Below, one piece after another: positions 207 to 25,487 of a stretch of DNA of 26,182 bases. The DNA is taken from the NCBI GenBank assembly GCA_002224055.1, contig AZLU01000070.1, positions 1 to 26,182 of the forward strand, written 5' to 3'. The notes under the pieces are model-generated. The model did not search any database, was not told the DNA's origin, and was given only the letters and a program-made list of their open reading frames with translations. Every line of letters begins with the position of its first letter. Position 1 is the stretch's first letter. The stretch is from Pezizomycotina sp. ARF18 (taxonomy: Eukaryota; Ascomycota). The translations under genes were made by a program, and so were the position numbers.

Positions 207-1010
207 TCAGTATAGATCGCCGTCGCTTTCGTCTTCGGACGGGTATTCTCGCTTAGCGTAGCGGCTGCTGCTGGTGTCGGCGTGCCCGTGCTGCCAGCCT
301 GCGAGAATGACGACGTGGACGAAAAGGATGAATTGAATGATGTCGTGCCGGACGTAGACGTCGAAGCCGGTTTTAGAAAAGGAAGGGAAGGTACACTTGC
401 GGCCGATACCGGCGCGGCAGGTTTCGAAAACAGCTTCGGCCTTTCCGTCGATATCGGCGGTTTGATTTCGCGCGGCGGTTGCGATACTGTTTGTGGCTGT
501 GATTTTGATAATTGCGGTGGTGGCAGTGGGGAGCCTTTTTAACAGTCCTTGGCTACTTCATCCTCTTCGTCGTCGATAATGACAACTTCCGGCGTCGGTT
601 TTCTGACTTTCTTCTTCGCCCTCAGCAACAGGGACACAGTGACCTTCGCCTCCGAGATTTCTCTTGTCGTCGACGGCGTCGCGGACACGCTCGTCCTCGA
701 CGCTTCACGTAGGTGCAGGGCTCATGAGCATCGCTCGTGGCCCTATCACTAATCTCACTCTCCCCTAACCCTCTTCGCCCTCTTCCTATGGGACGGCCCG
801 CGGGCGCCTTAGGCCTCGCTCCACTTTCCACCTCATCTCGCAGGACGGTCGCCTTCTTCTTCAGGGGCGGAAGCAGCCCTCTATGGCATGGTAGGTGGTG
901 TTCTCACCGAAGTATACCGCGATCTCCCGGTAGTGAACTTGAACTCGGTGGGCGGCGATGACGGCGGAGAGGAGCTTTTGGTATTTTTCCGCCGTCCAAG
1001 TTACCGGCAT
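207..1010 (-). CDS. Gene A: Myb/SANT-like domain protein with basic then Ser/Thr-rich tail (frame-broken)
   Basis: Reading from ATG at 1010-1008, the protein begins MPVTWTAEKYQKLLSAVIAA and continues with HYREIAVYFGE and HAIEGCFRP. This is a complete three-helix Myb/SANT-like pattern: Trp in helix 1, I-A-x-x-F-G in helix 2, A-I-x-x-x-(F/L)-x-x-L-K-K in helix 3. The frame hits TGA at 863-861, exactly inside helix 3. One more C in the C-run at 867-864 would continue it as PLKKKAT. The tail holds a GRP-containing basic stretch, then KKVRKPTPEVVIIDDEED, then TAA at 541-539. Beyond the TAA the same frame stays open for roughly 100 codons of Ser/Thr/Pro-rich sequence, and after one more shift ends in SEDESDGDLY and TGA at 209-207. 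Between about 758 and 703 either a missing base or a 56-nt intron (GTGAGA to GAAG) is needed. The likely role is nuclear DNA or chromatin binding, by analogy only. It is either a broken gene or one affected by sequence errors. Confidence 0.6.
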
Positions 1011-1700
1011 GAAGTGTAGGTATTTTTTTTATATCTTCTCAACTTTAAGGTCGTGTTTTCCGTTTCTCCTTCTCCTTTCTTTTGAGTGCTCGGTGGTAAC
1101 GTTCGTTATCGACGCTAAAATTAGAAGAGTTTGATATATCGTCAAAGAAGCGGTCAGTCGACGATGTTTGCTGCTGTATACGCTTTTCTGTAAATATTTA
1201 TGTTAGGACAGATAGTAGAGGAAGGGATGGTAGAGTCTCGATCCTCCCAAACTGACATTTTTCTTTTCTTTTTCTTCTTTTTAATAGAGGCCACTGCCGT
1301 GGCCGCCAGGAGTTTCCAATTTGTATGTGTGAGATACGTGTTTGTGCGCGAAAGGGAAACCGTACGTACAACCGGACAAAAAAAAAAGAGGCGTGAACGT
1401 CACCAGAAGTAAAGAACCAAAAGGATGATGATGGCTGGTATGTAAATGTATGCCGGAATGTTTGTTCAGTTTAGTCGGGTCGAGTTTTGGGGAGAGGCCG
1501 ATGCAATGAATCGTTCGCGGATGCTCGATTTGTCTGTTTCTCTATAATGCGTGAGGTGCGTGAGAAGTGCGTGAAGAAAAAAAACAGGCCTGGGTTTTAG
1601 GAGCGGCCACCAAAGAAAAAGGAAAAAAGAAATTGGAGAGCGAATAACAAAAACATGCACGACTGTTGTCGCATTAGCGCTATTTTTCCTTTTTTTTTTT

Positions 1701-1739
<39 letters not shown>

Positions 1740-2603
1740 GGGGCCGCGGAAATTTGCCCGTCTTGCCGTCGAAAGAATAGACACCCCTTCCCCCGGCAAC
1801 CAATCGCCCGGGACATGCCCCCCTCCCCCGTGAACCGGCACTGCAGGCACTAAAAAATGCAGTGGTATTGTCCATGGTGCCACGATCTTATATACCATTT
1901 ATATTAGATTTTGTTTCTAACCATTGATTCAATATACAACTATTGCTCCACTAAATATCTAATCAATAATAATAGAATGTTTCTTTTCCTCTTGCATGAG
2001 CGAGTAGTTGAGTGTTTTCTTCCTGGAGAGTTGTGGGCAACAATCTTCCACCGCTTCGGTCAGGGAGTTGTTTCTTTTAGCCTTTATGCCCTTTTGCTCG
2101 GCTGCGCCCTTTGAAACTCCAACAGGGTCTCGTTCGTTAAAGGATGTTATTCCTCCCCACGTCTCTTTCCCTCCTCCATACCCTCCGATAGTAAGTCTAG
2201 AGCTATAGATCTGATTTGCTTCTTTGGACATACATTTTTTTTCCAAACGCCGAATAGTTTATTGGAAAAAACTAACCCGTAAAAGATTTTTAAAACCATT
2301 CAGCTAGAGGGGAATACATTTCTGGTGATGCAAGAAGCCGATGGAGTCCATTCAGAACGCCCTTGAATTTAAACTAAAAGAAACGAAAGAGAGAAAAAAG
2401 TAGCAAATGACAATGAACCAATATGATGTCCTCTTTCGCCGATGATTGTATACTGATACATCGATCCCACTGCTACAAGCCTTGAGATTCGTGAATGGTA
2501 CTTGTATCCTTGGACAAACTAAACTCAACAAATACTTTTGCTAATAGCAAACAAAAAACAAATCATATGACGTACTCGAAGAAAATAAAAAAGGATTCTG
2601 CTT
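1011..2603. other. Gene-poor spacer between B and A
   Basis: I see no supportable gene. The most obvious element is a long T-run (about 33 T at 1703-1735, preceded by another 11). The open frames here are driven by that homopolymer, giving Lys-only stretches, and are not credible. The part next to 1011 should hold the promoter of gene A, but no clear TATA box stands out. Confidence 0.5.
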
Positions 2604-3330
2604 TTAGTATAGCCCACCCTCATCCTCCATCTCGTAGCTCTGCTTTCCAACCGTGCGTTGTCCCGCTCGACGCCGACGCTCTGCTTTTCAGTCACTGGTT
2701 GCTCCGCCTCGGCGGCAGCACTTTGATTTTCGGTGCGCACGTTGCGTTCAGGTACCGCTTTCCTAGGCGGTAACTTCTTCGCGGGTGCCTCGGGATCGAT
2801 GTAAGCTTTCGTCTTGTAATTTCGGTCCTTGTGATTCTTATAGTCGAACCCGTCGGAATCCGAACCCAAGTCGGGCATCGGGGGCTCCGATCCATCATCG
2901 TAGTCGTCTGCACATCCCTTTCCCTTCCCCTTTTTAGCCTTCCGTTGTTGCTTCTGCTTTTGTTTCTTCGGCGGAGAAGCAGAAGGAGAAGGCGACGCGA
3001 TCATGACGCCATCGTAAAACCTGCTCGGCAGATCGTTCCTTACGCATTCCTCTTCCTTGATTATAACATATCGTCATCGTATTCCTCTTCCCGGTTGATA
3101 ACGCTAACTTCCTCTTCCGCGGGGTCGGCGTATCGGGAAGATATCGCTGTCCGTTTGGCTCTCATGTCTGCTACTTCCTTTTGATGCCGCGGAGCTTGTG
3201 GTTAACCGAGTCCCGGGTCGCACCCGCGAGCACGCCGATGGTCGTGAGGTTGTAGCGGACAGCATCGTTGCTGGCGATATGGCGAGGAAGAGCTCCCGCT
3301 CGCGCTCTGGGTCCATGTCGATTTGGTCAT
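2604..3330 (-). CDS. Gene B: Myb/SANT-like domain protein with long charged tail (several one-base frame breaks)
   Basis: ATG at 3330-3328 begins MTKSTWT. Across a break at the GGG of 3309-3311 the domain continues ERERELFLAI, then (break near 3277-3280) IASNDAVRYNLTTIGVLAGA and TRDSVNHKLRGIK: a full Myb-like domain with helix 3 ending in L-x-x-I-K. A break in the T-run 3179-3182 leads to EVADMRAKRTAISSRYADPA and EEEYDDDM. A break near 3066-3070 leads to VIIKEEECVRNDLPSRF and a long tail (SPSPSASPPKK, a K/Q-rich stretch, PMPDLGSDSDG). A last break near 2632-2636 gives the end EMEDEGGLY with TAA at 2606-2604. Every break fits one missing base. No intron is required. The tail is basic then acidic, typical of disordered nuclear proteins. 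Expected to be about 240 residues if intact; function is inferred from the domain only. Confidence 0.62.
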
Positions 3331-4534
3331 CGCGACTAAGTAGCTATGTTTGTCTTTTGATATGGATGATAGATAAGCCTCTGAGCAGAATGCTGACAAG
3401 CGTATTCTTTTGTATTTGAAGAGCGCGTGAGTATTTTAGCAGTAAAGCCGTGAAGTTTCGAAATATGACGTTTTAGCGAGAGGAGGAAGAGTAGCAAAGC
3501 CTGCTGCGACGTAAAATACGCTGCATCCAAAGATCAATCGAGTGATTTCTGGTATAGAAACCAAATTGAACTTCCATGCAATGGGAATCTGTCCGGTACC
3601 CACCATCTCGACTATTCCATCAGCTAAACAAAGGAATGAAAATAGACCTTCTTTTATTTTGTTTTTTCATTGATGGCTCTGTGCTGTCCTTGAAAGTTTC
3701 TATTTCGTTCAATGCCTTTCCTTTGTCCTCTAGTACTAAGAAGATTATAATAAAGAGAAATATCAACAGTTTAGAGAAATCTTAGGGATTTAACGCCTAC
3801 ATTAATATTAACAAATGCTTCTTAGATTACACTCGCTCTTAATAGAAGGTATACCACTATTGAGTACTTTACAAGAGATGTTAGTCTAGTAACACCTCTG
3901 AAGGAATACTAGACTAGGAGATGTTGCATTGACAAAATAAAATTGTTTTTCTTTAACTCGATCACGGTGCTATATGAACTTTCGGTCGCCTAATTCCATC
4001 CCTCACGAAGTATCCCTCTTTTTTTATGGCTTGATATAGTGACTATCGAGGCCAATTCCTTCACTCTACTAAGGACCACCCTGTCTCCTGAGAAGAGACC
4101 TTCACGGAAGGGTGATTTGAGCCTGGAAGGACATTTCGACTCTGGGTGACGCAAATAGCATTCGATATTATTTCGTTTTTATATATATTTTTTTTATTCT
4201 GCTTCTTGTCTAGTCTACTCTAGCTATTGCAAATATTCCATTGTGCTCTTGTTCTATTGCGATTGCTACCTACTTATTCTTTGAACTTTCGCTAGACTTT
4301 TCAACTCGTGTTGGTTTTTTTTTTTTTTTTTTTTTTTGATTTTAATACGATGGAATGAACAAAGCACATGACCGTTTTACTTTTATTCCAACCTTTAAAC
4401 GCCATGAGAAAACCAAAGATCAAATAAAAAATCAATTCAGCCCAACATTGCTTTTTCCTCATAAATGCTCATGCCTCTTTTTTTTTTTTTTTTTTTTGTT
4501 CCCCAGTGGCTGAAGAACCTAGATTTGGAAAATC
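3331..4534. other. Gene-poor spacer between C and B
   Basis: No gene is recognised. The stretch includes T-runs at about 4314-4337 and 4478-4497 and a small perfect inverted repeat (10-bp arms at 3882-3891 and 3907-3916). The sequence just above 3330 should be the promoter of gene B. Confidence 0.5.
3882..3916. repeat. Short inverted repeat (possible hairpin)
   Basis: The arms TAGTCTAGTA and TACTAGACTA are exact reverse complements separated by 15 bases. No adjacent gene end makes a terminator role likely, and no target-site duplication was noticed. Confidence 0.4.
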
Positions 4535-5586
4535 TCAAATAACGTCATCGTCATCTTCCTCAGGGATTTCGAAAATTCCCTCTTCACAGATATCGCCTGC
4601 GGAGAGATCCAACATCGGCATCCTTCTAACGGCGCCGCCAATCTTGGATATCCCGATGTGGTTGATGGTGTTGTGATTATAATTGTTCCTAATACCGTTA
4701 TTGTCGGTGATATCGAATATCAGGCCCGTGGTAAGCGTGTTTTCCATCTTTACGTCCAGGGAGGTACTAAAGATCGATCGCATCGCTTGAACGGTTCCCA
4801 GGATAGCATTGCGGTGCGGATTAAGCATGGTAACATCAGCGTTGTTCCGGAGCGCAACTACCGAGTCATTGGTCGTTTCGACGATGTCGTCGTCTTCGAT
4901 CGGCGGCAGGGAATTGACAAAGTTCGTCGTGCTGCCGTCGTCGAACATCTCCACCTTAACCCGTCGACGGAGTGCGGGACGCCGAAGAGCTGGATGTCCT
5001 CTAAACTTAGGGCGGACGTTCTCTTCAGCGTACTCTTCGACCTTCGTTTCCATCTTGACGTGCGTCTGCCTCCTTGAGCAGTTGCTGCTCGACCGTGACG
5101 GCCATTGCGTCTTCCTCGATTTCGGGTGGATTAAAGAGGAAGAGAAACTGCTATGGTCCGGCTCTTTTTCCATCTCCTTCTTAACGAGGTACTCGCCATC
5201 AGGTCACCGTACCCAACACCGTACCCGGGTATCTTCCCCTTCTTAGTTCCTCCTCTTCGACCTCACTATCGTCCTCGTTCTTCGATGCCATTTTCTTCGG
5301 ACGGCCCTACGCTTCGATACGCCTCCTCCGCCCTTCGGTTTCAGAACGTCGCTGTTATCTGCCGAAGAAGAAGAAGAAGCGGATTTACGGGGTTTACGGG
5401 TATAGGTGCTGCTGCCGCCGATATCGCGGGCTTCTTTGCGCAGCTTCTTCATTTCTCCTCGATGGCGCGGGGGATGCGTCGCCGCCGAAGGCGCGGGCGA
5501 TCTGCTTGTAGTCCATGTGGATGTGGTGCACCGCCAGCGTCACCAGGAACAGCGGGAGACATTTCGGAGGTCCAGGTGATTGGCAT
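4535..5586 (-). CDS. Gene C: Myb/SANT-like domain protein with AT-hook and long acidic, psi-K-x-E-rich tail (frame-broken)
   Basis: ATG at 5586-5584 starts MPITWTSEM. After a shift near 5554-5556 the domain runs LFLVTLAVHHIHMDYKQIAR and AFGGDASP, then (missing C in the G-run 5469-5473 and missing A at 5452-5454) RAIEEK and MKKLRKEARDIG. The basic tail TYTRKPRKSASSSSS follows. A missing base at 5305-5307 restores an AT-hook, KRRGRPKK, followed by NEDDSEVEEEE. After further shifts around 5060-5210 comes one long clean frame (stop at 4535) containing VKME, VKVE and VKME, all matching the psi-K-x-E SUMO consensus, and ending FEIPEEDDDDVI. No intron is seen in the domain. This is the longest single-domain member, with a tail of about 300 residues. 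The last 200 codons read cleanly, which supports a real protein rather than an old relic. DNA binding is inferred from the domain and the AT-hook. Confidence 0.6.
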
Positions 5587-6917
5587 CTTGGACGATTTCT
5601 CTGACTCCCTTATTTCGTTTTTGTTTGGAGATTTTGCCTACTGTGTATGAGGTACACAGGACGGGGTGAGTAACGGAAACATTGCAAACGTGATCAAGAA
5701 GAAGTGTAGACACAAGGGAAGTTGGAGATGAAACTACCTTGCTGTCTTCGTTTTCTTCTTGCTGTTGTTTTCTCTTATTCCCCCGCAAAAAGATTTCCCG
5801 TCCGTGTATGAGCTGTCCTCTACTTGGTAGCTTTCTGTTGAGCTTGAGGCTACACAAGATTGTGATTTTCTCAAGAATAGCGGATATAAAGTCCTGAGAG
5901 CAGCTGGGTGATGTCTATAGCAGCAGAGGCAGCAGAGGTATTAGAAAAGAGCTACAGGAAAACCTATATATCGTATTTGGTTTTGGGTATCACCGAGCTC
6001 AACAGTGAAGATGATCAGTGGGCTGTTATACAGAGGATACACTTACCAACTCACTTCCCACTTAGTTAGGGCTGTTTGTCCTCTTTTTTTTTTTTTTTTT
6101 GCTGAGCTTGCTCTATGTGCTCTATGTGCTTCTTTGTCCTTCCACGGATTTACATGTCTGTCCTAGCGTCATGCACGTGCAGGGGAGAGCTACTACAAAA
6201 TGTATGAAAATTTGCAGGGTTACAGCCGTAGCTTGGCTATAGCTATAGCTGAAGGGGCTACGTAACCAATAGCAAAGGCAGTTACAAGGGTAGAGCTCCC
6301 GAAAGCAGCAATGAAGCTCGTTTTACGAAGATTTTTCCTAAAATTACGTACCTCGTTCGTGCTTTAGAATTCAATTGCACGACAATTTTTTACAGTGGAG
6401 AAATCCTAAACCTTTCGAATAAAATGGAGATAAGTTAAAGGCCCTGGATCATGAGATGATTTGATATCGATTACAAATGGGAGTATTTTGTAATATATAT
6501 CTTTTTTTTTTTTTTTTTCGTTTTTCCCCTCTTTTTTCCTTCGGTAAATGAGAATATGACTCAGGTACTACTTTAGGTATCATTCTGCGCAGAAGGAAGG
6601 GTCCCGATGTGAAGCCAATATTTACTGAATTATTGTGGAAGTGTGTTAAGAATGTTATAATACCGAATCGGATGTATGAGTTTCGTAGTAGTGAGTATAA
6701 TGTAAGTCTTAGATATATAATTAGATAGGAAAGAAGAGCATATCGCTCTGTATTATACTACCGTTTTAAAATTTCTCCTGCAAAAGCCCACGTTTTCCCC
6801 ACAGATGTTAAACAAAGGTATACCCGTCTAAAATTGCGTTTACATGACCTTCATCTCCCTCAACTTCCCCTTTTTTTTTCTCTCTCTCTTTTGTTTTGCG
6901 GTTTTCGACATAGATCT
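5587..6917. other. Gene-poor spacer between D and C
   Basis: No gene is recognised. It contains T-runs (about 6084-6100 and 6502-6519), short tandem copies of CTATGTGCT around 6113-6130, and a GCTATAGCTATAGCT stretch near 6234-6251. An apparent minus-strand reading frame up to 5857 simply runs through the start of gene C in the wrong frame. Confidence 0.5.
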
Positions 6918-7694
6918 TTAATATCCACTATAACTATCAGCGTTGTCAGCCTCCGGACCGAACCCCGTAAGCACTTTAACCATATTAGTCTTCCTCCTCT
7001 TCGCCTCCATTAAGGCTCTCCCCTTCCTCCCTTCCTCCTCCTCATTATCATATTCCTCTTCCTTCTTTACCGTCTTACGCTTCTTAACCACTTTCTCTAC
7101 TTCTTCTACTTCCTTCGGTTTCTTCCTCGCCTTCCCCTACCCTGCTTAGGCATTATGACGGCGGTCTTGACTTCTTCGTCGTCGACGTCGTCGTTTTGAA
7201 GATATTTTCCTTTGGTTTTAGGTCCTCGCTTCCTTTTAGTAGTGGTAGTAGTAGTGGTGGTGGTGGTGCTAGTGGTGCGTTTAGGTCCGCGGGGGAGTAT
7301 TGGAGTAGTCGAAGTTGGCGATGGGTGAGGAGTCAAGGATGCCTTGGAGAGGCGCGGATTTGACGATGCGCTCGGTTATGGCGCGGGCGGTGGGGACATC
7401 GCGGCCGTCTTGCGCTGTATTATACCAAAACCATTTAAAAAGGAAAAAAGAAAAGTGTTAGCTAGAGAAGAAAGGGAGAGAGCAAAAGTAGGAGAGGACT
7501 TACGCCAGGCATCGCGAATCCTTTCGCCCTTGAGATTAATGTTGTGCGTATCGAGGAGAAGGACGAGGAGGATGTGATCCTGGTTTCTCAAGAATAGTTA
7601 GTGCTCTATAATGACTAAAACCCCGAGAGGCCACGGAGCGGATTATAGAAAGCTCAAAAACTTTTGTACTTACGTTCTCGGTGGTCCAGCGCAT
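6918..7694 (-). CDS. Gene D: three-exon Myb/SANT-like domain protein with Lys/Glu-rich tail (frame-broken)
   Basis: Exon 1 (7694-7674) encodes MRWTTEN. Intron 1 (7673-7580) has GTAAGT, a CTAAC branch site and CAG. Exon 2 (7579-7504) encodes DHILLVLLLDTHNINLKGER and IRDAW. Intron 2 (7503-7415) has GTAAGT and ACAG. Exon 3 continues PQDGRDVPTARAITERIVK, a clear helix 3. One missing base at 7359-7361 and one at 7346-7347 extend it as IRASPKASLTPHPSPTSTTP. The tail then gives a (T)10 run, KRKRGPKTKGKYLQ and NDDVDDEEV. A missing G in the C-run 7134-7137 leads to a third frame, KARKKPKEVEEVEKVVKKRK, ending DNADSYSGY with TAA at 6920-6918. The two clean introns and continuous homology argue for an expressed gene. 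The Thr repeat is a codon microsatellite. Role: probably DNA or chromatin binding. Confidence 0.66.
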
Positions 7695-8255
7695 GGTGAG
7701 CAACAATAGGGATTTTTCAAGCAGGTTTGGATTTTCTTTTTGATATGATTCGACTTAGTAGAAAAACACTAAGAGGAGAGAGTGGGTTTCTCTTGACTGT
7801 TACTGACGAATACCTCTGCTGAGCGAAAATATTTCCTTAAGATGGCGGTGATATCTCGGTGATGATAAAAGAAGTGAGGTCGTCTGGGAAGAGAGAGGTG
7901 GAAGAGATTTCAAAGGATGAACTTCTTTTTTTATTTTAGCGCAATAGGGATATCCGTAGGCACTCCTTAGGATATAGATAGATATATTCACAAACTTCTC
8001 AGGATAAGGGTAGGTCCATCGCCACCTGGGAGTTTGCTGCCGTGGAAGTTTTGTAAATGGAGCTCACTGTCACGTTTTGGTGACGTATTTACTGTCATTT
8101 TGAAAAGCTACCGGGACGCTGCATAAGTCAATACAAACAGCAGTTTGAAAGAAATTCCCGCTGAGAGCATTGGTAGAGAGGAAGAAAGAGCGACACTTAT
8201 CCGGGAAGCTCTCAATCGTGATATTAATAATGGGACTTTACTTTGCTATTCTAAA

Positions 8256-11150: not shown

Positions 11151-12126
11151 ATGCCGATGCACTGGAACGAAAGAGCGGATGCCAGGGTCAGTATATCCAG
11201 CTAGCACATAAATACATATATAATTTCCCAACAAAATACTAATATGATCTCTGCCATTTTCTATTAGCTCTTCGCAGCCGTTATAAAAATCCACAACATC
11301 AAAATAAACTACGAAAAAGTAGCAGAAATCATGGACCCGACTGCACCGCAAAAGCAATCTGCCACCGCGTCTCCAAGATCAAAGAAAAATGTAAAGGCGA
11401 TTTCGCAGGGATCAAGATAGAACCTATCCACGCCGCCGACGCTTTCATACCGAAACAGCAGCGAACGGCGTCCGTTTCGGCGTCTCGAGCGTTGCGCCGA
11501 CGCCGAAGGATGATGGCGCTTCTGTTACGTCGACGCCGAAGCGCAGGGGCAGGCCGCCGAAGTCGGCAACGTCGTCTGCGCTGAAGCGCACGAAGATGGA
11601 AGCGGAAACTGATAACGAAGGGGAGCAGCAACCCGCCGACCGCGGTTCGCCGAGTCTGAGGAAGAAGGCTAAGACTGCTAAGCGCAAGAAGGCCTTACCA
11701 TATTCTCCTGTATCGGCCATCGAATCGTTAGATTCGTCTACCAGCTCTTCGCCGGCGACTATCGATTCGGCTTCTAGTCCTCCGGAGATCTCAGCGAGCA
11801 ACCGTATAAAACCCATCCTACAGCCCAGCTTCTACTTTGACGACGTGGTTACGTCAGCCGCATCACCAAACGTGAACGTCAAAGTTGAAGCCAAGGAAGG
11901 AGAAATGTCGGAGTTGTTGCGCTTAGACGGCGACGGCGGCGATGACACGGCAACCTTGGCTATGTTAGGAGGTGAGAACGATGATGCTGCCTTCGGCATG
12001 CACAACGACCCGCAGATGTCCTTTGCGGATACGTACATGTCCTTTGACTTTTGCTTCCCCGATTGGGACCCCTCTTGCTTTGGTGGTGCTGAGGATTCGT
12101 TTGCTACTGTAGATTATAATGAGTAA
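11151..12126 (+). CDS. Gene E: two-exon Myb/SANT-like domain protein with AT-hook and acidic C-terminus (frame-broken)
   Basis: Exon 1 (11151-11186) encodes MPMHWNERADAR. The intron 11187-11267 has an unusual donor GTCAGT, a TACTAAT branch site and TTAG. Exon 2 continues LFAAVIKIHNIKINYEKVAE and IM. One missing C in the CCC at 11336-11338 then gives DCTAKAICHRVSKIKEKCKG, a textbook helix 3. A second missing base near 11464-11465 joins to SSVAPTPKDDGASVTSTPK, the AT-hook KRRGRPPKSA, and a long clean tail: RKKAKTAKRKKALPYSP, a Ser-rich block, VNVKVEAKEGE (psi-K-x-E), and an acidic/aromatic end FATVDYNE with TAA at 12124-12126. The tail reads without interruption for about 220 codons. It is the only plus-strand member in the left half. 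Probably a nuclear DNA-binding protein; possible activation-type acidic end, by inference only. Confidence 0.7.
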
Positions 12127-13323: not shown

Positions 13324-13976
13324 TTACTCCTCATCCTCATCCTCCTCCTCTTCCCTCGTCATATCCACAACTCCGACCGGCCCTTACTCTGTCCTTGCGC
13401 CTCCCCTTAAATAGCTTCCTCCGCGTCGCATCGCCCTCTTTATCCTCCTGCGCATCGACGTCCACAACCTCGACGTCTGGTTTAACCCGCTGCTTCTTCG
13501 ACGGACTCTGCTGCTCCGGCTGAACAGCGGCACTGGCGCTACCGTAGTCGGCATTGTTGCTGTTATCCGGTGGCTGTATCATGACCTCGTCGTCGTCCTG
13601 CTCCGCTAGCTTCCGCTTATTCTTCGATGGCGTGCCGTTAGGTGTTTTGGGAGACCGGCGCCGCGGGGTTTTCGGGTGTAGCGTTACCCGGCCGGCGGAT
13701 CTTTTGCCAGTGCTGCCTGCAATGTGTCTCGTTTTCGATTAGCTATGGACCTTTTCAATTTGGTATGGAAATGAAAGGAAAGTGTGCTAAACTTCTGAAG
13801 GTAAGTAAGAGAATTGCAACAAAAAGAGGAAGCAAAACAGACCGGCACGCCTCGTGCGTGTACCCCTTCCCCATCTTCGCGGACACCTGGTGCCAGTTCG
13901 GCAGCTTTTTAATGTCGAGTAGGTCTATGATAGCGAGCAGCAGCTGCTTTTCGTCCTCGGAACTCCAGACGGGCAT
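13324..13976 (-). CDS. Gene F: two-exon Myb/SANT-like domain protein with TP-rich basic tail
   Basis: Exon 1 (13976-13843) encodes MPVWSSEDEKQLLLAIIDLL, then NWHQVSAKMGKGYTHEACR: helices 1 and 2 and the start of helix 3, with conserved Trp at both ends. The intron has donor GTCTGT at 13842, a CTAAT branch site and two acceptors four bases apart (ending at 13717 or 13713). The upstream acceptor keeps helix 3 (QHWQKIRRPG) but then needs two missing bases in 13669-13676 to reach the tail. The downstream one enters the tail frame directly but loses helix 3. The tail reads KTPRRRSPKTPNGTPSKNKR, AEQDDDEVM, SPSKKQRVKPDVEVVDVD. It ends at TGA 13339-13337 or, after a further shift, in an acidic run TREEEEDEDEE with TAA at 13326-13324. 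Best-preserved domain of the left half; DNA binding inferred from family. Confidence 0.7.
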
Positions 13977-16375: not shown

Positions 16376-16926
16376 ATGCCTTCCAAGCTCACCGCCGACC
16401 AGAACTCTCTTTTCCTGTACACTATCATTAAGACGGCTGACCTCAAATCTGTAAGTCATCCCTAATATCTTTATTAATTTATTTTATATTACTTCTTTAA
16501 ATGTTTTCACAAAGCTAATATGATTCTCACTTATAGATCCAATGGAACCAAGTCGGCAAACAATTCAACCTTACCAACCAAGCTGCTACATGCGCTTCTC
16601 CCGCCTCCGCACCGTTATGGAAAAGGAACTCCAGCTTCTCGACTCTAAAATGGCCGCGAACCCCGTTCCTTTAACTCCCAAGAAGAACTCTTCGCCTTCG
16701 AAGCCCCGGCAGCCGAAAAATAAGGGTAAGGCTGCGGCAGCGGCGACAGCAGCAGCTGTGTTGCTTCACCTAACTCGAAAACAACGGCTTCATGAGCTTC
16801 GATTCGGCTACCAGCACGATGAGCTTCACGAGCGGCTCCGAGTCTCCGTCCAAGAAGAGGAGGCTGGAAGAGGATGCGGATATTGAAGAGCTTAGTGAGG
16901 CGAGCTATGGCGTTTACACAGAGTAA
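16376..16926 (+). CDS. Gene G: two-exon Myb-like domain protein with Pro/Lys and acidic tail (frame-broken)
   Basis: The start context CACCATG is good. Exon 1 (16376-16450) encodes MPSKLTADQNSLFLYTIIKT and ADLKS. The intron 16451-16536 has GTAAGT, CTAAT and ATAG. Exon 2 opens IQWNQVGKQFNLTNQAAT. One missing base near 16588-16591 then gives MRFSRLRTVMEKELQLLDSK, completing helix 3. The tail continues VPLTPKKNSSPSKPRQPKNK. After shifts near 16746 and 16782 come CVASPNSK, a Ser/Thr-rich block, the putative nuclear localisation segment SPSKKRRLEEDADIEEL and the end EASYGVYTE with TAA at 16924-16926. The intron lies exactly before the (I/V)(Q/D)(W/Y/F) motif, as in H, J, K and domain 2 of I. Smallest broken member; probable nuclear DNA-binding protein. 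Confidence 0.7.
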
Positions 16927-17946
16927 ATTGTCCTCTAAGGGTCCCATTTGACGGCCTCTATAATAATGATTGGGTTTTTTTGGCGTCTGTTCTATTTTTT
17001 CGGTTGACTTTTCTTTTTGATATTCTGGTGAAATTGAACCGCTGGTTTTTCTCTTTGGTTCTTTCGGCTCCTGTCCTTTTGTCGTTTGTTCATGATCAAA
17101 TTTACATGGCTAAATATATGGTTGTTTTGCTTCAATTATTTTTTTCATTTATTGTCTTCTCGTCTTGCGAAAAGTTCTTAATATTCTTTCCTTTCGAGCT
17201 TCTATTTCGCAATATCTTCTTCAACATCGCCTCGTTTCCAAATTGTCAAAGATTGCTTTACATCATTGTTAAATAGTATTCTTCCTATTATCTACTTCTT
17301 CCAGTGCATAGATTTTCCTAATTATTCTCCATAAATCCATACTCGAGAAGGGCGCTTGGCTTCCTCTAGATTTCAAGAATCCAACTCGAAAATTCTTGAG
17401 AGAAAAAGTTGAATGAGACGGAATAGGAAACGGTGTAGAATAGACTAATAGACAGGGTAACAACTGGATGTCACTAGTATCTCCTCGAATTTTCCCTTTC
17501 CTGCTTCCCTCACTGCATATCCAACTAGCCTGTTGGAGTGTTCTAGCCCTCTCCAATTTCCTCGCACCATGGGCACTTTTACCAGGCTCGGGTTCTATTC
17601 GTGGGTGCTTCCAGCCATTTACAGACCCTTCTTTCACCAGGGCTACTCTCGACCACCACATTTTCAAGTTATTTTGCCAATTCGTCGACCCACTAGCAGT
17701 CCCATACCTACTAAGTACTTAATACTTTCTACAATTCCCCCCCTTCCAAGCCCACTACACAGTACTTCTGAATAAATTTGATACTCTTCTCATTTTCCTC
17801 TCGATACATATTCAGCAAACATTCATCCCGTTCTCAAAATCGTATGAACTTTTTTTTTGAATATTTTCAAGTCTAAAATATCTCAGCAAAACCAAAGCAG
17901 ACAGAAAACCTCACCGTAAGATTTCAATACAGAGTAAGAATTTGCA
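16927..17946. other. Spacer between G and H
   Basis: No gene is recognised. The plus strand is T/C-rich just after G (3' untranslated region likely). Overlapping frames at 17269-17775 occur on both strands with no start context, intron signals or family resemblance. Confidence 0.5.
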
Positions 17947-18557
17947 ATGCCGCCGTCAGCCTCTTATTCCCAGAATCCCGCGCCGTTCTTGATGTCTGTC
18001 ATCAGGCACTCTGATATCAGCAAGGTAACATCAACATTTCCATTTACATGCAATACTCCTATACACGATCATATATTCATAATCACTTTCCGGTATCCTA
18101 TAAGAAGAAAAGACATATTCACTTGAAAACTTGTACGATAATTTTTAGGTTGATTACGAAGCCATCGGCCGCGAAGCCGGCATCACCGCGCACTCCGCCT
18201 ACTGCCGCCTCAACGAGCTCAAAAAGAAACTAAAATCCGACTCCGATTCCTCTTCCCCCGCGACTACGCCTAGAAGCCGCGTACTCCCAGTAGTAAAAAT
18301 AAAGCTACGCCGAAGAAGAGGAAGGAAGAAGATGACGACGAAGTTGAAATGCAAGCGCAGATGAGGGATGAAGTCAACGCTAGCCCTACGAAGAAGGCGA
18401 AGGTTAAAGATGAGAAAGTGCAGAAGGTATGGATGTTAAGGAGAAGGAAGAGCAGGGGCAGCAGGTGAAGGTTAAGACGGAGGGGAGACAGAGGGTTCCG
18501 TTGAGGAGGGCTGTTGTTCAGGAGGAGGAAGAGGAGAGCGATGGGGTTATTGATTGA
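17947..18557 (+). CDS. Gene H: two-exon Myb-like domain protein with Lys/Glu-rich tail (frame-broken tail)
   Basis: Exon 1 (17947-18024) encodes MPPSASYSQNPAPFLMSVIR and HSDISK. The intron 18025-18148 has GTAACA and a T-rich tract ending TTTTTAG. Exon 2 reads VDYEAIGREAGITAHSAYCR and LNELKKKLKSD without any break, so the whole DNA-binding domain is intact. The tail shifts frame near 18279-18283 (one missing base) into TPSSKNKATPKKRKEEDDDE and SPTKKAKVKDEKVQK, and again near 18428-18432 into DVKEKEEQGQQVKVKTEGR. It ends EEEEESDGVID with TGA at 18555-18557. Without correction the domain frame would run on as an Arg/Lys-rich extension to a TGA near 18371. The domain resembles the fungal Myb-like family with the K|VD intron. 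Nuclear DNA or chromatin binding is inferred. Confidence 0.73.
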
Positions 18558-19431
18558 AGCAGTGGTAATAATCGTTTGAGCTTTTGCAATTCTTTTGATA
18601 TTCATGATGACCTCGAGAAGGAGAAATATGTTTGGTCAGATACCTATATTCATTTTGCTTTTCTTCTCTTCTCTGCCTTGTGGTATCTACGGAAAATCTA
18701 TTCTACAATCTACCTTACCGGAAGCATTCGAGTTTACGGATTATATTGAAGAATCTCCGCTATCTCTAACGGCTCTATCTACAAAAATTATTTAGTTACC
18801 AATCAATAATGATAACGTCACGAATATTCCCGGATGCTACTTCTATTGGATTCAGCAGAGATTCGTTTGATTCTGAAATTTGCCTGAATAGTAAAAAAGA
18901 CTTTTCTTTTTGGCACCTTAAACCTATTCATGACTCTAAGAGAATTGATTCAAGAGCTACCTAAATTAACAATAATCCCAATACTACTATAATATTCTCT
19001 GTTTCTAGATATTTCTTACTGAGATCCGAGTACATGAGCACGTCCGGTCTTTTTCGTGAATATCATTTATTATTATAAACTATATAGAAACTAGTCTCGC
19101 TTACTACTAACAGCAACCGAGTGAAAAAAATCGCGATTAGAAAGTTCATGAAGATTTTCTATACTTAAAGTATTATTGTTTCGCTTTAAAAAAGAAATAA
19201 AAATTCATACGGCGGCTGGTTCCAGAATCCACTATTTGTGCCAGTCTCCACATATTCTCTGAGTCCAGCCCCCTATAATCTCGTGCCCCCTTAATTAATT
19301 CCCTCCGATCACATAAAAATAAAAATATTCCATCTTCCACCCGAGCCTCACATTATTTATTCACCGCCAGCACTTCACAACCACCAGCATATCTTCACAG
19401 TTGTATATCAAGAGTAGAAAGAAAGCCAAAG
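18558..19431. other. Spacer between H and I
   Basis: No gene is recognised. It is A+T-rich. The last 100 bases before gene I are C/A-rich (CACTTCACAACCACCAGC) and look like a 5' untranslated region. Confidence 0.5.
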
Positions 19432-20688
19432 ATGGTGGTCTCAGACGAAGTATTCCTCATGTCGTGCTTGAAGCATACGCACTACAATGCGCCTCTGGGG
19501 CGAAGGTAAAGTAAATATCTATTTATACATATTGCAAACCCTCTATTAACGGATTAAAAAATAAAATATATGACTGTTGACTACAGCGCCGTCGCCGCAG
19601 CGTTCGGGTATGCCTCGAAAAAGTAGCCTACAACCGCCTGACGAAGCTCAAGAAGGACGCCGCCAGCGGGAACGTCGACGAAGCGGCCAGGCATTCCGAC
19701 TGCGCTTTCATCTTGTGCTGCATGCAGCACAGCAATGGCAAAGTAAGTATTAAAGTGATGCTTTTTCTTTCAATTAATTTTTTGTTATTAATATTATTTT
19801 ATTTATTTTTCTTTCTTTATTTCTTCATATATTAGTTTCTTCTTAAGTATTAATAGTTAAATTTTTTTCATTTTCTTTTTTTTTTAAAAAAAAAAAAAAA
19901 AAAAAAAAGGTCGATGGTAAAGCGGTCGCAGCGGACATTGGCTACGCTTCAGAGAAAGTAGTCAACAACAGGCTCACGAAGCTGCGAAAAGAAAATCCGT
20001 ATAATATCCCCCAAGTGGGCAGCAGCAACAATAGCGGTGAGAGAGGTATAGCTAGCGGTGGTGCCATAGGTAGTGGTGGTGAAAATAGCCTTGAAACGTT
20101 CTGGGAGCAAGTTGGCGCCGCAGCGTCCAGCGGAGCTAGCCCCGGTGAAAGAGCTGAAGACGGAAGCCCCGCTGCGAACCCACTCTGGAGGAAAAGAGGT
20201 AGGCCACGAAAGGACCCAAGCCAACCTAGACAAGCAACGGCACCAAAGCGCACAATATCTGGTGAAGACGAACAACAGCAACAACAACAATTTCGATCGC
20301 AACAACAGAGCACCGCGAAGGGGATCACGAAAAGGACAAAGGGAAAGGTAGAGTTGGTAGTAAGCCGACGGGGAGTTCGGCGGATATGACAGCGGGAGGA
20401 GGGGAGAAGGGTAGACCACAAAAGCGCGTTCTAGAGCTCGAGGGTCAAGGCCCAGCACTTGCCAGAGTTGCTCATAGCGGGGAGGGTGTGGTGGAAATGA
20501 GGGGCAATGTTGCACTTCAGACCACGAAAGGAGCAAAGTTGGGAATAGTCCGACAAAACGGTCAAAAATCGATCTGGTGGATTGGAAAGATACCTAGGAA
20601 AAGAAAAGGAATCGTGTTGGAGCACGTGGTTTGTTGGCTAGGGCCAAACAAACGGATTTTTTTGTTTGCTAATAGGTTTGGCAAATAA
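19432..20688 (+). CDS. Gene I: three-exon protein with two tandem Myb-like domains, AT-hooks and poly-Gln
   Basis: Exon 1 (19432-19505) encodes MVVSDEVFLMSCLKHTHYN. Intron 1 (19506-19586) ends CTACAG. Exon 2 gives AVAAAFGYAS. One missing A in the A-run 19618-19622 then gives KVAYNRLTKLKKDA, completing domain 1, and CAFILCCMQHSNGK, helix 1 of a second domain. Intron 2 (19743-19909) begins GTAAGT and ends in a 23-A run before AG. Exon 3 reads VDGKAVAADIGYASEKVVNN and RLTKLRKE, then runs clean to TGA 20387-20389. It contains Gly/Ser-rich linkers, a canonical AT-hook KRGRPRKDPS and Q6 and Q3 runs. One missing G at 20347-20348 would continue it as SKPTGSSADMTAGGGEKGRP, with a second AT-hook-like KGRPQKR, to TAA at 20686-20688. 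The two domains share GYAS-x-KV-x-x-NRLTKL(K/R)K, so they arose by internal duplication. Only two-domain member; likely bivalent DNA binding, by inference. Confidence 0.72.
19743..19909 (+). other. Intron 2 of gene I with poly-A acceptor tract
   Basis: The donor is GTAAGT. The end is a T10 block (19876-19885), a 23-A block (19886-19908) and the acceptor G. The reading frame on both sides and the homology to domain 1 fix the borders. The adenine tract next to the 3' splice site is unusual. Confidence 0.65.
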
Positions 20689-21719
20689 AGGAAGCAAGAT
20701 GTTTAAAGGAGGTTCCATAATGCAGGATAAAAGAGAAATCCATATTCCTTTTCCTTCTATTACATAACTGTGTCTTATTTGGCAGGAATAAAAAAAGCCT
20801 TCGCCATTTGCATCCACTCAAACAAGATATATTAAAAAAAAAAAAAAAAAAAAAAGAGATCCGGGTATGCGGCGGATATGAGTTAGTGGTGAAATTAAAA
20901 CAGAGAGGCGGAGACAGCGAACGAAAAAAGCTTGGTTATTTAGCTTTCTTGAATGAATATCTTTCGCGATAAACCGTATTGAAATTCTGTATAGAATATA
21001 TTGTGGATATGCGCGAGCTCCATTTCGTAGTTTATCCGCAGCGCCCACATATGTGTGCGAATAGGTCCTTGACGACACCACGGAAAAGAAACAGTAGGCG
21101 CAGATTACAAAAAGGGAATAACGCCAACAAAACTGATAACTGAGGGGCGTCACCTCCAAGCTTTCTTAAGCTAGTCTAAAGCAGGTTTGATCGAGAAGAA
21201 AGTACCCTTACTTACGCTCAGGCCACTAGCTTGTGTTTAGCTAGAATGCGTGTATTCTTATCGTGAAAGTCTCCAGGCTAGTTGGTCTAAGTGAAAGTGG
21301 TATTCTTTGATGGTCTTCTGAAGAAAAACGAGTAGGGATTTGGCCATCTCGTTTGGTTTGATTTTTCTCCTGAGGGTTCATTGATGCATGGTCCGCTTTA
21401 TTGTGCTTCATGTCCCAATTGCATGCCATCCAAAGATACTCCAGTATAGGATTCGTTTTGGAACATATATTATTATTCGGTCCCAAGCTGTTGGTATTTG
21501 TCTGTAGATTCCTTTGTCCCGAAAAATACAGAAAGGAAAAAGAAAAAGAAGAAAAAGAAAAGAAAACTAGGTGAAAAAAAGCAAAGAGGTATATCAGAGG
21601 ACAACCTTACCCAATACTTTGTTCTCTGCTCGGAGCGATTGTCACGGACCGTAGAAAACCAGTTCTCTGGGTCTTCCTAGTATTTTCTGTTATATTTCTG
21701 CCTCACAAGTTTTCGCACA

Positions 21720-22091
21720 ATGCCATCATTGAGAAAGATCGAAAAAATGTGCCCTTGGGCTGCTGATGTTGTCCGTGATTGTCAGGCAAAGAGCTCTCTT
21801 CGGGGCAGGAGAAACTACACCATAACCGGTAAGTTCGGGGAACAAAAGGTAAAGCGTACAAAAACGTGCCGGGACGTTTTCTCCGAGGAGATGCCCTAAT
21901 CCAACTGTGTAAAATAAATGTTAGGTATGCGTACAGAAACCAACATTTGTTCGAGTTTTTTTTGTTCGGCCGCAGCGGAAAAAAACAAGTATCTGCCGCG
22001 CCGGAAGATTCTTTGTTTGCTTTCTCCGACACATCCGAAGGTAATGGGATGTGACACCTCCTGTCATATGGGCCCTGTCTATAGCCCTTGA
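21720..22091 (+). CDS. Possible two-exon small Cys-containing protein (speculative)
   Basis: ATG at 21720 opens MPSLRKIEKMCPWAADVVRD and continues to RRNYTIT. A near-perfect intron follows at 21829-21924: GTAAGT donor, CTAAT branch site about 27 bases before the end, TTAG acceptor. Splicing keeps the frame open to TGA 22089-22091, giving about 91 residues with several Cys in the second exon. The segment RRNYTITGKFGEQ vaguely recalls helix 2 of the local Myb-like domains, but there is no convincing helix 1 or 3. It could be a diverged family relic or chance. I do not recognise the protein. The main support is the splice signals. Confidence 0.22.
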
Positions 22092-22715
22092 CGCTTACGT
22101 TATGGGGGTGCTCGAGCGATAAAAGTGGTGTAGGGCACATGGACTTCGACCATGGCCCAGACCGTTCGCAAAAATGCGCATGGGATGTCACAACATGGCG
22201 TACAGATTAATAAATAAAAAGGCATCTCGGGCTCCCCGACGAAAGTAACTTGGCTCAGCAAACGAGTCGCAATTCGAATTGAATTTTTGAAATGATATAA
22301 GATTCTATGGATATTTGTCCACACTTGACGTACCCAACTAGCTCGGAACTTCTCGCCGAAAGGAATAGGAAAGCAATCTGTAAATATCCAGATACCTATA
22401 TTGAGAGCTCAATGTTAGCTACTGTATGCCCAGAAACACGCGTTACACAAACAAGAATGAGGGTTATCCTACTTGTCTCAGAATAGGTTCTGGATACTGT
22501 CATGTGTTGGATATGTTATACATACAATTGAATTTCCCTTCAATTAGCCTTGTTGGATTGGAACCGTTCCCCCTATCATTAAGCTTAAGATATACCATTC
22601 TTGCTTATTCTTCTTACCTTGGACCGTGAGTCTTTTTCCTGGGGAGATTTATGGGGTAGCCGAAGAGGATTGCCTAGGAGAGTCGGTACTGAGCCGCAAG
22701 CACGACATAGTGCGG

Positions 22716-22733
22716 GGGTTTCCCGGGAAACCC
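22716..22733. repeat. Perfect 18-bp palindrome
   Basis: GGGTTTCCCGGGAAACCC equals its own reverse complement. It sits in a locally G+C-rich patch between I and J, with no gene assigned next to it. It may be a binding site for a dimeric protein or a chance hairpin. Confidence 0.6.
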
Positions 22734-23031
22734 GGGTCGTTTTCCATCAATTCCTTAACTTTGATTCGGCACCGTTAAGCAACGGTTCTTTTCGCAACAT
22801 TGACGCAGATTGGAACCTGATTAATCAGTATGCTTGAAAGAGGTTCATTGGAACACGGTTAACCTCGAGAAGCTTCGACCTTAAAAAGTTCGTTATTACT
22901 CCCCGGAGATCCCTTCCCTCTTTCAATCATCTTCAATGCGGAACTTTGATTCCCTTGCGAACGAAACACCAGACACGCTTCGATAACAAGAAAAGAAGAG
23001 GGTGAGGTCAACATCCTTCAGAACACGAGCA

Positions 23032-23588
23032 ATGAATGCCAGTATCAGTACTCCGAAGAAGAACGATGCCCCGAGTAAGGACGTGCTCGCGAAGAATGCG
23101 CAATTCCTCGCCTGTTGTTTCCAGTGCATAAAGGGGACGGCAAATGTAGGTCTCAACGCCTCTATATATATAAAAATATATGTTCTCTCCTGAATTCTAC
23201 GTTCTGCTTGACACTCCGTGCGGAACTCTCGACGCTAATAGAAAGCGGTCTGTAGGTAGATTTCGACATGCTTGCTGAGATGATGGGTCTCAAGAACGCC
23301 AAAGTTGCCGCGACCCGCCTATCTCAGATTCGAAAGCAGATGGATGTCGCGACAGGATCATCGGCATCCTCGGCGAAGATCAAGAGCATCAATAGCGGCA
23401 ATCCTGCGGACAAAGTCGTCAAAATCAGGAATTCTGCGAAGAGCGCTAGCGCTAGCCCAACCAAGAGTCGCAAGGGAAACCTGAAGAAGGCTAGCCCTGA
23501 CATGGAGGTGGCGAACGAATTTCTCGAAGAGTCAAGCATGGGATACCCACCCCAGTGGTTCCCGACGATGATAGGAACGCAACGATGA
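23032..23588 (+). CDS. Gene J: intact two-exon Myb-like domain protein
   Basis: Exon 1 (23032-23145) encodes 38 residues, MNASISTPKKNDAPSKDVLA then KNAQFLACCFQCIKGTAN. The intron 23146-23255 has GTAGGT, a CTAAT branch site and GTAG. Exon 2 (23256-23588) encodes VDFDMLAEMMGLKNAKVAAT and RLSQIRKQMDVA, completing the domain, then a Ser/Lys-rich basic tail (KVVKIRNSAKSASASPTKSR, KGNLKKASPD). It ends MGYPPQWFPTMIGTQR with TGA at 23586-23588. The 148-residue product has no frame break, the only member for which this is true. The intron position (directly before VDF) matches G, H, K and domain 2 of I. The tail lacks a clear AT-hook but is strongly basic. Nuclear DNA-binding or linker-histone-like role is inferred from domain and charge, not shown. 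Confidence 0.82.
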
Positions 23589-24531
23589 TATGAGGGGAAC
23601 CTGAAAGGCAAAACAAGAGGAATATAGACAAGGAAAAACAAATCATTAATTAAACCGCCTTTATTTCGAGATTATTTGTTTTATTATGATTTCTTTGCGA
23701 TGGGAATCTGTGGCGTTCGTCATTGAATTTTTCTGATCTTCGAGATAGATTTGCTTTGTTTCTCTCTTATCGTCCCTGATGAATTCAGGGATATAATTTG
23801 GATCACCAGTGTGCAATTGAAAATACTCCTCCGGAAGGTTTGGTCGAGACTATTTCCTTTTCTTTTTCTTTTCCTTCCTCTTTCTCGTTTTTTCCTTTCG
23901 ATTTCTTCTCGCCAAAAAAGGGCTCTTTGTGCGGCACAAGCAATTAGTCTTCTTTGAAAGCTTCCTGTACTTACGCTTGCAAATGTTCGGACGAGTTCAT
24001 GGACCCGATTGGTTGCGCTGATATTCTTCCCTGGTAGCGAAATTTAATAACCTGTAGTAGTTTCATTGTTAGGAATAAGACATAATAGCATATTTTTCGC
24101 TGTTGAGGTAGAACAAAAGATGACAAATTTGGGGGTTGTTGCATTCAAAATTGGTGATTTCTTCATTTGTCTCCTTTGTCCAAAATGATAAAAGGGGGTC
24201 TTTGTTAGAAAGTGCTCATTGACCTACGAAGCCGTAGCATTATAGTTCAAAACGACGCTCGAGTGGGTAAGGACAGGTCAATTTTTTGTTCTGGAAGATT
24301 GTGAAGAACAACAGAGCTAAGTTGGTATCAATATAAGAAAAGATATCCACGTACCAAATTGCTTCCTACCAGCGTCCCACGACGTCACGTTCGTTTCGGA
24401 ATCTTACCAAAAAAAGTATCGTTGTTAGCCCTTAGATTTGCAAAACAAAATATTCAATTCTTGAGAAGGGAGCAAATATTCCTTGCGAAGTGAATCCACA
24501 GGCAACAGGCACACGAAATCTTGCCTTCGCT
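23589..24531. other. Spacer between J and K
   Basis: No gene is recognised. A pyrimidine-rich stretch follows J around 23855-23915. The reverse-strand frame at 24432-24719 is antisense to exon 1 of gene K. Confidence 0.5.
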
Positions 24532-25487
24532 ATGCTCTCAACCTCAATTGTAGTAGCAGAGGAAGCTCCCCTACCTCCGTCACGAGGTTCGCCGATGAAG
24601 AGGAACACTTCCAATTCCTGATCGCATGTATTAGGCATTCGACTATGGCAAGGTAGAGAGAATGTTGCGTATAAAAATGCAATTTTATTTTCCCCTGTTT
24701 GCTGAGGCGAGCTAATCAAATTCTCTCGTTAACTCGTGCAGATCGATTTTTTGGCGGTAGCTAGAGAGCTTCGCATCGTCAGCAGGGAAGCAGCGTAAGT
24801 ATTCCATATAACAAATACTATCAGTTTTTACTCTAGAGGGTAGATATCCTAGGGCTCTAACAGTTTTGATTATTACTTACTAGTCAGAAACGCTACCACC
24901 GAATGATGCAAAAGAATGGAATATTGACGACACAAGGCGGCGGAACGAGATTTTTCGGTCCAGAAACGGAAGCAGCCAAAAAGAGACGCCTTCAGAAGCT
25001 ACTTACACGCAATGTTCTTCTTCGTATTCCGCCGGTGTGGGATTAGCAAGGCCTCGCTACCATCTCAAGCCAACGTCCACCGCTCGCCGTCGAAGCTTCA
25101 TTCGAAAACGCGGGTTGACGAAGAGGAAATCTGATACGCCTGCGAAGGTGCCGTGCAAGAGAGGAAGACCAGCAAAGCAGAAGCCGAGGAGATGGCATGA
25201 AGGAAAGTTTGAAGGAAAGTTTGAAGGAGGCCAACTTACTTCCATGAACCTGTGCCTCAACTTCGGTAGGCTTAATGATTCTAAAGGAGGAGGACGATGA
25301 TGAGGAGGAAAGAAATCTATATATGAAGGAGACGGATATAAAGAAAAAGCCTGTAGATCCGTGTCAACAGCATTTTAAAGTTTTCAGTATTTTCCAGGGA
25401 TATATAGAATGTGATTTCGAGGGAGGGGTGGTTAGGGAAATTAAGCAAAGAAAACTACGAAGCAAGAAAAAAATAAAATTAAAATAA
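24532..25487 (+). CDS. Gene K: three-exon Myb-like domain protein with AT-hook (frame-broken)
   Basis: Exon 1 (24532-24652) begins MLSTSIVVAEEAPLPP. One missing C at 24577-24578 gives TRFADEEEHFQFLIACIRHS and TMA. Intron 1 (24653-24741) has GTAGAG, CTAAT and GCAG. Exon 2 (24742-24794) encodes IDFLAVARELRIVSREAA. Intron 2 (24795-24883) has GTAAGT, CTAAC and CTAG. Exon 3 gives QKRYHRMMQKNGI, helix 3. The F-L-x-x-C-I-(R)-x-S...(V/I)DF-x-x-VA...AA-x-KRY-x-R-(L/M)M pattern is what I know from the common fungal Myb-like family, so this member best identifies the group. The tail breaks frame around 25000-25140. It carries the AT-hook KRGRPAKQKPRRW, an imperfect repeat EGKFEGKFEGG, and an acidic EEDDDEEE segment starting at 25275. 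Its last open frame runs to 25487, beside a pentanucleotide repeat, so the true 3' end is uncertain. Confidence 0.7.

Follow-up and report, generated by a model that had tools for sequence, protein, structure and literature searches.

A loose cluster of diverged genes for putative DNA-binding proteins of the PF22980 (Myb_DNA-bind_8) type in Pezizomycotina sp. ARF18

Results

Gene content of the array

Over about 25 kb of the window, meaning the whole stretch of 26,182 nucleotides analyzed, we found 11 gene-like places, each where the original prediction had put one (Table 1). They hold 12 copies of the domain, two in gene I and one in each of the others, and domain identity ranges from 10 to 41% when measured against the first row of each alignment. 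The domain of gene J is intact, as had been predicted. The prediction also held that nothing else lies between the array genes, and nothing else recognizable was found there: a Pfam scan of the 57 other ORFs of the window gave five single matches at E <= 0.01, the best at 9.8e-4 and none convincing, an Rfam search of the window returned no family over threshold, and a tRNA search of the window returned none. A subtelomeric array was rejected, as doubled TTAGGG or its complement was absent from the window and from the other loci examined.

Table 1. Position and structure of the 11 array genes in the window
Gene	Position	Strand	Features
A	207..1010	-	Single-exon domain MPVTWTAEKYQKLL...AIEGCFRP at 864-1010, followed by a frame break and a charged tail
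B	2528..3316	-	VRYNLTTIGVLAGATRDSVNHKLRGIKRK, a piece covering helices 2-3; domain broken in frame; charged tail
C	4538..5586	-	LFLVTLAVHHIHMDYKQIARAFGGDA, frame breaks within domain, 222-aa tail ORF
D	6918..7694	-	Three exons, MRWTTEN / DHILLVLLLDTHNINLKGERIRDAW / ..TARAITERIVKSA; introns ~7580-7673 (acceptor CAG) and 7415-7503; charged tail
E	11151..12126	+	Helix 1 preceded by intron 11187-11267; domain reads LFAAVIKIHNIKINYEKVAEIM and, past a frame break, AICHRVSKIKEK; tail ORF of 243 aa
F	13340..13976	-	MPVWSSEDEKQLLLAIIDLLDIKKLPNWHQVSAKMGKGYTHEACR, helix 3 split by short intron 13787-13842
G	16376..16926	+	Helices 1 and 2 separated by phase-0 intron 16451-16536; frame broken ahead of helix 3
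H	17947..18557	+	Intact domain with phase-0 intron 18025-18148; tail with frame breaks, ending ESDGVID
I	19432..20389	+	Two tandem domains; exons ~19432-19505, 19587-19742, 19910-20389; first domain frame-broken
J	23032..23588	+	Intact domain with phase-0 intron 23146-23255; tail basic
K	24530..25300	+	Phase-0 intron 24653-24741; second intron 24795-24887 in helix 3

The final splice of gene D follows the DNA itself, its introns starting with GT and ending with AG, and was chosen with the family pattern known. The tail of gene A was taken to end with ESDGDLY at 207. The predicted model of the gene A domain has three helices (mean pLDDT 82, pTM 0.48), and a Foldseek search with this model gave PDB matches no better than E 5.1. 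AT-hooks had been put forward as a general feature of the tails, but we found them confined to three of the 11 genes: the [R/K]GRP core in a basic context, counted without a chance control, was present in E (KRRGRPPK, in the tail ORF), I (KRGRPRKD), and K (KRGRPAK, in a different tail frame) and not in the other eight. The tail of gene F carries three S/T-P-x-K/R motifs.

Comparison of the array domains with PF22980 and other known families

Scoring against PF22980 (about 50 positions; curated cut-off 27 bits) revealed that five of the 11 window genes, contributing six of the 12 copies, pass the cut-off. Gene H scored 46.0 bits, gene J 29.9, and the first and second copies of gene I (I1 and I2) 32.5 and 33.5, while gene G reached 32.6 bits with its unbroken part and 47.8 with X at the break. 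Gene K, which is one base out of frame before its first intron, scored 69.3 bits when typed across that mismatch. In contrast, genes F (18.9 bits, or 17.8 with helix 3 added) and E (12.2 bits) stayed under the cut-off, and for A, B, C, and D there was no PF22980 match with E <= 10, nor did placing X at the breaks or re-splicing D bring one; the domains of these four, the re-spliced D included, had no Pfam match. By sequence, we assign G to K to PF22980, and since A to F fail its cut-off, we call them PF22980-like at most.

An NCBIfam search gave nothing useful, and no Myb chain was matched when the family profile was run by sequence against the PDB. Classical Myb proteins have tandem repeats, whereas the array proteins have one short domain, or two in gene I. 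The likeness to the classical Myb/SANT family (PF00249) is a weak 17.2-bit match of gene F, but the 24.4-bit cut-off of that family was unmet by all domains scanned from the array or from a second contig with family members, C97 (see below). AT-hook proteins of the HMGA type likewise resemble E, I, and K in the RGRP core with its basic flanks, but differ in that the array has this core in those genes only, alongside a Myb-like domain.

Relationship between the left (A-F) and right (G-K) groups

We scored relatedness with leave-one-out profiles, as the number of 2000 shuffles scoring at least as high. When D and F were spliced as the DNA reads, this number was 13 for B, 7 for D, and 0 for each of the other 10 window copies. 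In an earlier run with D wrongly spliced, it was 0 for C, E, F, H, I1, I2, J, and K, 1 for G, 5 for A, 58 for B, and 133 for D. With unspliced six-frame pieces, a weaker form of the test, half of the 12 copies (C, E, F, H, I1, and I2) beat every non-family ORF, and the remaining ranks were 2nd for A, 5th for K, 6th for J, 16th for G, 64th for B, and 823rd for D. B and D lacked support in both of these earlier runs. The predicted set of 11 Myb/SANT-like genes sharing a domain of about 50 residues stands in part: in addition to G-K, recognized by Pfam, the leave-one-out scores support A, C, E, and F as relatives of the family, while D and B appear weakly supported, D as a weaker member and B as the weakest of the array.

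Two subgroups could be told apart by a phase-0 intron that separates helix 1 from helix 2; it is common to G, H, I, J, and K and was not found in any of A-F. The right profile (G-K plus C97) recognized the left genes C and E (0 of 2000 shuffles as high) and F (2 of 2000) and did not rise above shuffles for A (319), B (155), or the wrongly spliced D (1545 of 2000), so that it is mainly C, E, and F that tie the two halves together. With the left profile, 1 to 15 of 2000 shuffles scored as high for H, G, I1, and copies a, b, and c of C97, and 53 to 485 for C97d, I2, K, and J.

Frame breaks and selection

Read by eye, the domain is frame-broken in 7 of the 11 genes (A, B, C, E, G, I in its first copy, and K). 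Genes for HSP70 and CCT in the same assembly showed about 20 frame changes in 7.7 kb (five HSP70 genes, about 2.6 per kb) and about 12 in 7.9 kb (seven CCT genes, about 1.5 per kb), and these changes leave no room for an intron. The counts leave out 3 of 38 HSP70 rows (two on C44, one on C10) and 3 of 33 CCT rows (two on C70, the contig of the window, and a nested one on C20), and 3 of the 32 counted junctions are ambiguous, resting on overlaps of 145-325 b. Since the HSP70 and CCT genes break too, the array breaks look like assembly indels rather than decay, and we caution that a frame break in this assembly does not by itself mean gene death.

The two domains of gene I are closer to each other than the domain identities given above, being alike in 19 of 28 residues, but 21 of their 28 third codon positions are different (pS 0.94, pN 0.20 over 28 codons). 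As they differ mainly at synonymous sites, we take this as a sign of purifying selection.

Family members elsewhere in the genome

Three genome-wide queries of the family type recovered 10 genes, six in the window and four on C97; two of the three were consensus peptides made from known members and are hence biased toward these. Gene C was matched by the left-type consensus peptide at E 0.03, and single exons of gene K scored 17.1 and 18.1 bits in the genome-wide search. Single-member protein queries of the genome matched their own genes only, and a 14.8-bit match on C3 was rejected as an extra member because it reads as low complexity. With these searches, which are of limited sensitivity, credible members were found only in the window and on C97.

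All four spliced copies on C97 (a to d) passed the PF22980 cut-off, at 39.6-52.7 bits, and, as read by eye, also have the phase-0 intron of the G-K type. Two further candidates on this contig scored 29.8 bits (at 32 kb) and 23.1 bits (at 27 kb), the latter below the cut-off. The introns of the neighboring copies a, b, and c gave no alignment. The concern, raised with the original prediction, that the array is an artefact of the assembly in which copies were collapsed or scattered is not supported because the copies are far diverged, as seen both in the domain identities and in these introns. Diversifying selection on the C97 copies (pS 0.47-0.62, pN 0.41-0.51) was considered and dropped; selection cannot be shown for them because they are too diverged.

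Discussion

Taken together, the results point to an old cluster of PF22980-type paralogues that arose by local duplication and encodes small proteins, putative DNA-binding nuclear regulators, a reading that we hold to be probable. The original prediction was largely right. The locus holds about 11 old, diverged genes, loosely clustered, from one known but uncharacterized family of small DNA-binding-type proteins, and gene duplication of the ordinary, local sort seems to have produced them. Local duplication and divergence of Myb/SANT-like proteins had been predicted, and the Pfam family, the leave-one-out profiles, the common intron of one subgroup, and the detection of members only at this locus and on C97 all agree with it.

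The broken frames could instead mean that the array is decaying and that most copies have been inactivated by frame shifts. Besides the seven broken domains, some tails are affected (e.g., that of H), and the array breaks were not counted in the same way as those of HSP70 and CCT, so single genes may be decaying. We nevertheless consider general decay unlikely and set it back, since essential HSP70 and CCT genes are frame-broken as well, at the rates given above, the changes between I1 and I2 are mostly synonymous, and tail ORFs of 133-243 aa are open in B, C, E, and F, with GC3 of 0.55-0.64 against an intergenic GC of 0.42. GC3 is lower in gene I (0.47). It is also unlikely, in our view, that two unrelated families of small domains lie side by side, a PF22980 family on the right (G-K) and another on the left (A-F). 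The intron confined to the right group would fit such an arrangement, as would the failure of the right profile (with D wrongly spliced) and of Pfam to recognize A, B, and D; against it are the right-profile scores of C, E, and F, the 18.9 bits that gene F reaches on PF22980, and the mended leave-one-out scores of A, D, and B.

Very unlikely, we think, is a diversifying array in conflict, in which DNA-binding specificities turn over in allorecognition (heterokaryon or mating) or in the silencing of mobile DNA. The genes are clustered and divergent, their tails have little in common, and members were found in two clusters only, as such an array might be expected to look, but we saw no sign of positive selection, gene I appears to be under purifying selection, and no conflict or transposase domain was recognized in the 57 window ORFs or in 80 flank ORFs (>= 125 aa), scans that are blunted by the frame breaks. 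The original prediction had offered defense against mobile DNA, mating, and heterokaryon recognition as options, for which we found no evidence. More speculative still, and highly improbable, is the idea that the two clusters, at the left end of C70 and on C97, could be one locus whose DNA-binding proteins, each directed at a target of its own, would form an evolving battery for lineage-specific silencing or self-recognition.

Returning to the old paralogue cluster, we hypothesize that each of the locally duplicated PF22980-type genes encodes a small protein with a three-helix Myb/SANT-like domain of about 50 residues and a charged tail, the tails carrying S/T-P-x-K/R motifs and, in three genes, AT-hook cores. 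The array proteins are probably DNA-binding and nuclear; the basic helix 3 would bind DNA, the tail would add contacts, and the proteins may act as transcription or chromatin regulators. The literature searched under the name and accession of PF22980 contained no paper on this family, and a dense cluster with the intact domains of H and J and the two-domain gene I, which appears to be under purifying selection, would be a good place to learn what its members bind. As far as sequence can tell, a basic helix 3 together with a charged tail would be compatible with a chromatin factor; among the 15 helix 3 strings tested, which did not include F, net charge ran from +1 to +7.

Family membership of the domains

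The window spans positions 1 to 26,182 of contig C70 (193,275 bases; genome 46.36 Mb in 408 contigs), and gene-like sequences are present at all eleven predicted places, five on the minus strand (A, B, C, D, and F) and six on the plus strand (E, G, H, I, J, and K). Their introns, read from the DNA, are short (about 56-167 bases) and GT-AG, which together with the genes present suggests a filamentous fungus. Eleven is correct as a count of genes but not of domains, since gene I carries two in tandem (I1 and I2). The original prediction of nothing else between the genes holds in the sense of nothing else recognisable: the 57 other window ORFs gave five single weak Pfam matches (E up to 0.01, best 9.8e-4), and Rfam and ARAGORN searches of the window found nothing.

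Membership was examined with the Pfam family PF22980 (Myb_DNA-bind_8; cut-off 27 bits) and with leave-one-out profiles of all other members, scored against 2000 shuffles of each domain. G, H, J, K, I1, and I2 exceeded the Pfam cut-off; F (18.9 bits) and E (12.2 bits) fell below it, and A, B, C, and D gave no match, also with X across the breaks, nor did D when re-spliced. When D and F were spliced according to the DNA sequence, 7 shuffles scored as high as D and 13 as high as B in the leave-one-out test, and none did for the other ten window copies or for four spliced copies from another contig (C97a to C97d). In a run with D incorrectly spliced, such shuffles numbered 133 for D, 58 for B, 5 for A, and one for G, and the remaining eight window copies (C, E, F, H, I1, I2, J, K) had none. 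In a cruder and weaker version using unspliced ORFs, six of twelve copies outscored every non-family ORF, B ranked 64th, and D ranked 823rd. Judged by sequence, the shared domain is thus well supported in nine genes (A, C, and E to K, by Pfam and/or the leave-one-out profiles), while the predicted membership of D and B is more weakly supported. Small WT-x-E-N type proteins like these are common uncharacterised paralogues in filamentous ascomycetes.

Two subgroups within the array

All of the right group (G to K) have a phase-0 intron at a single position, where it separates helix 1 from the (V/I)(D/Q) at the start of helix 2, and the same intron was read by eye in C97a to C97d. No intron was found at this point in the left group (A to F), where other introns lie before helix 1 (one in E), in helix 3 (one in F), or elsewhere (two in D). 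A right-group profile recognised C, E, and F (0, 0, and 2 of 2000 shuffles as high); A (319), B (155), and D (1545, in the incorrect splice) went unrecognised. Conversely, the left-group profile recognised H (1), C97b (3), G (6), I1 (7), C97a (14), and C97c (15), but not C97d (53), I2 (120), K (425), or J (485). Because of this intron pattern and cross-recognition, we read the array as at least two old subgroups lying side by side, whose unity rests mainly on C, E, and F.

Two unrelated small-domain families could instead adjoin each other. We consider this improbable, and somewhat more so once D was spliced as the DNA reads, a correction that also slightly raised our estimate for an old cluster of locally duplicated PF22980-type paralogues, which is the probable reading. 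The cluster is real, old, and composed of a known kind of gene.

Paralogues on a second contig

A genome-wide PF22980 search gave nine exon matches. C70 and C97 had four each, those on C70 all lying within the window (two belong to K, the others to H and J), and the ninth, a weak one, was on C3. The sensitivity of this search was limited, as it found three of five Pfam-positive window genes and four of six C97 places. The C3 match falls in low-complexity sequence. Of two consensus peptides made from members, one matched only four C97 places genome-wide and the other only A, C, and E. The C97 member at 27.7 kb is under the Pfam cut-off. In a further 98 kb of C70, the best profile match had E 0.98. 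The sequence read for members covered C70 up to 124 kb and C97 up to 127 kb, except 49-98 kb. For ten genes placed at random, the chance of six in one 26-kb stretch is about 1e-14, a figure that shows clustering only, the queries being partly built from genes they found.

Features of the window, C97, and the control genes
Feature	Contig	Position
ESDG(D/V/G) stretch, gene A	C70 (window)	207-240
ESDG(D/V/G) stretch, gene H	C70 (window)	18520-18557
ESDG(D/V/G) stretch, 32-kb gene	C97	about 32.8 kb
AAAAT/AAAT-type tandem repeat, ~170 b, after gene K	C70 (window)	25463-25640
Sequence reading N, right of window, adjoining array	C70	about 26.3-28.1 kb
Second cluster of the family, five members	C97	20.2-32.9 kb
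Lone member	C97	113.3-114.2 kb
Individual members	C97	about 20.9, 22.1, 23.5, 27.7, 32.2, 113.5 kb
HSP70 with frame shifts	C70	64385-65993
HSP70 with frame shifts	C49	53036-54818

Frame breaks and selection

Seven of the eleven genes have a frame break within the domain. In the control genes, frame changes with no space for an intron numbered about 20 over the 7.7 kb of five HSP70 genes and about 12 over the 7.9 kb of seven CCT genes (tally without 3/38 and 3/33 rows, respectively; three junctions ambiguous); across the genome, essential genes carry roughly 1.5-2.6 frame shifts per kb. It is hardly plausible that every one of these HSP70 and CCT genes is inactive, so indel errors, probably of single bases, are very likely present in the assembly. 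The array's breaks are therefore poor evidence for decay, although they were counted in another way and may be in excess. Over 28 codons, I1 and I2 are near synonymous saturation (pS 0.94) with few non-synonymous changes (pN 0.20), a pattern that we take as positive sequence evidence for function. The C97 copies have diverged too far for this comparison to tell selection. The cluster appears to be under selection at least in part.

Predicted structure and role

The intact piece of A was modelled as three helices (mean pLDDT 82), which fits a Myb/SANT-like bundle; Foldseek gave no significant match to this model in the PDB (best E 5.1). Helix 3 was basic in 15 of 15 strings (net +1 to +7), a set that excludes F and in which the A, C, and G strings were typed across breaks. 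S/T-P-x-K/R motifs occur in some frame in the tails of eight of eleven genes, and three tails (E, I, K) have RGRP AT-hook cores, both counted without a chance control; AT-hooks were predicted throughout, and do not stand as a general feature. From the model, the basic helix 3, and the tail motifs, the proteins are predicted to be nuclear and DNA-binding, most likely acting as transcription or chromatin regulators. The more dramatic options suggested at first, defence against mobile DNA and mating or heterokaryon recognition, found no support. A, H, and the 32-kb gene of C97 have a similar acidic ESDG(D/V/G) stretch close to where their C-termini are presumed to lie.

Literature searches found no paper for PF22980 by name or accession, and nothing to the point on fungal Myb-like gene arrays. 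In the passages seen of one paper, Myb is listed among fungal regulator classes, the main ascomycete expansions are of Zn2Cys6 and fungal-specific transcription-factor domains, and a Myb expansion is not mentioned (PMC3998117).

Flanking regions

Many long A or T runs are found all over the window. Scans of ORFs of at least 125 aa, which frame breaks weaken, revealed, in 48 ORFs of C97 (1-49 kb and 108-118 kb), an FMN-dependent dehydrogenase as well as amino-acid permeases. To the right of the window (C70:26-65k), the 32 ORFs scanned, one of them mostly N, included an HSP70 and a Brix-domain gene.
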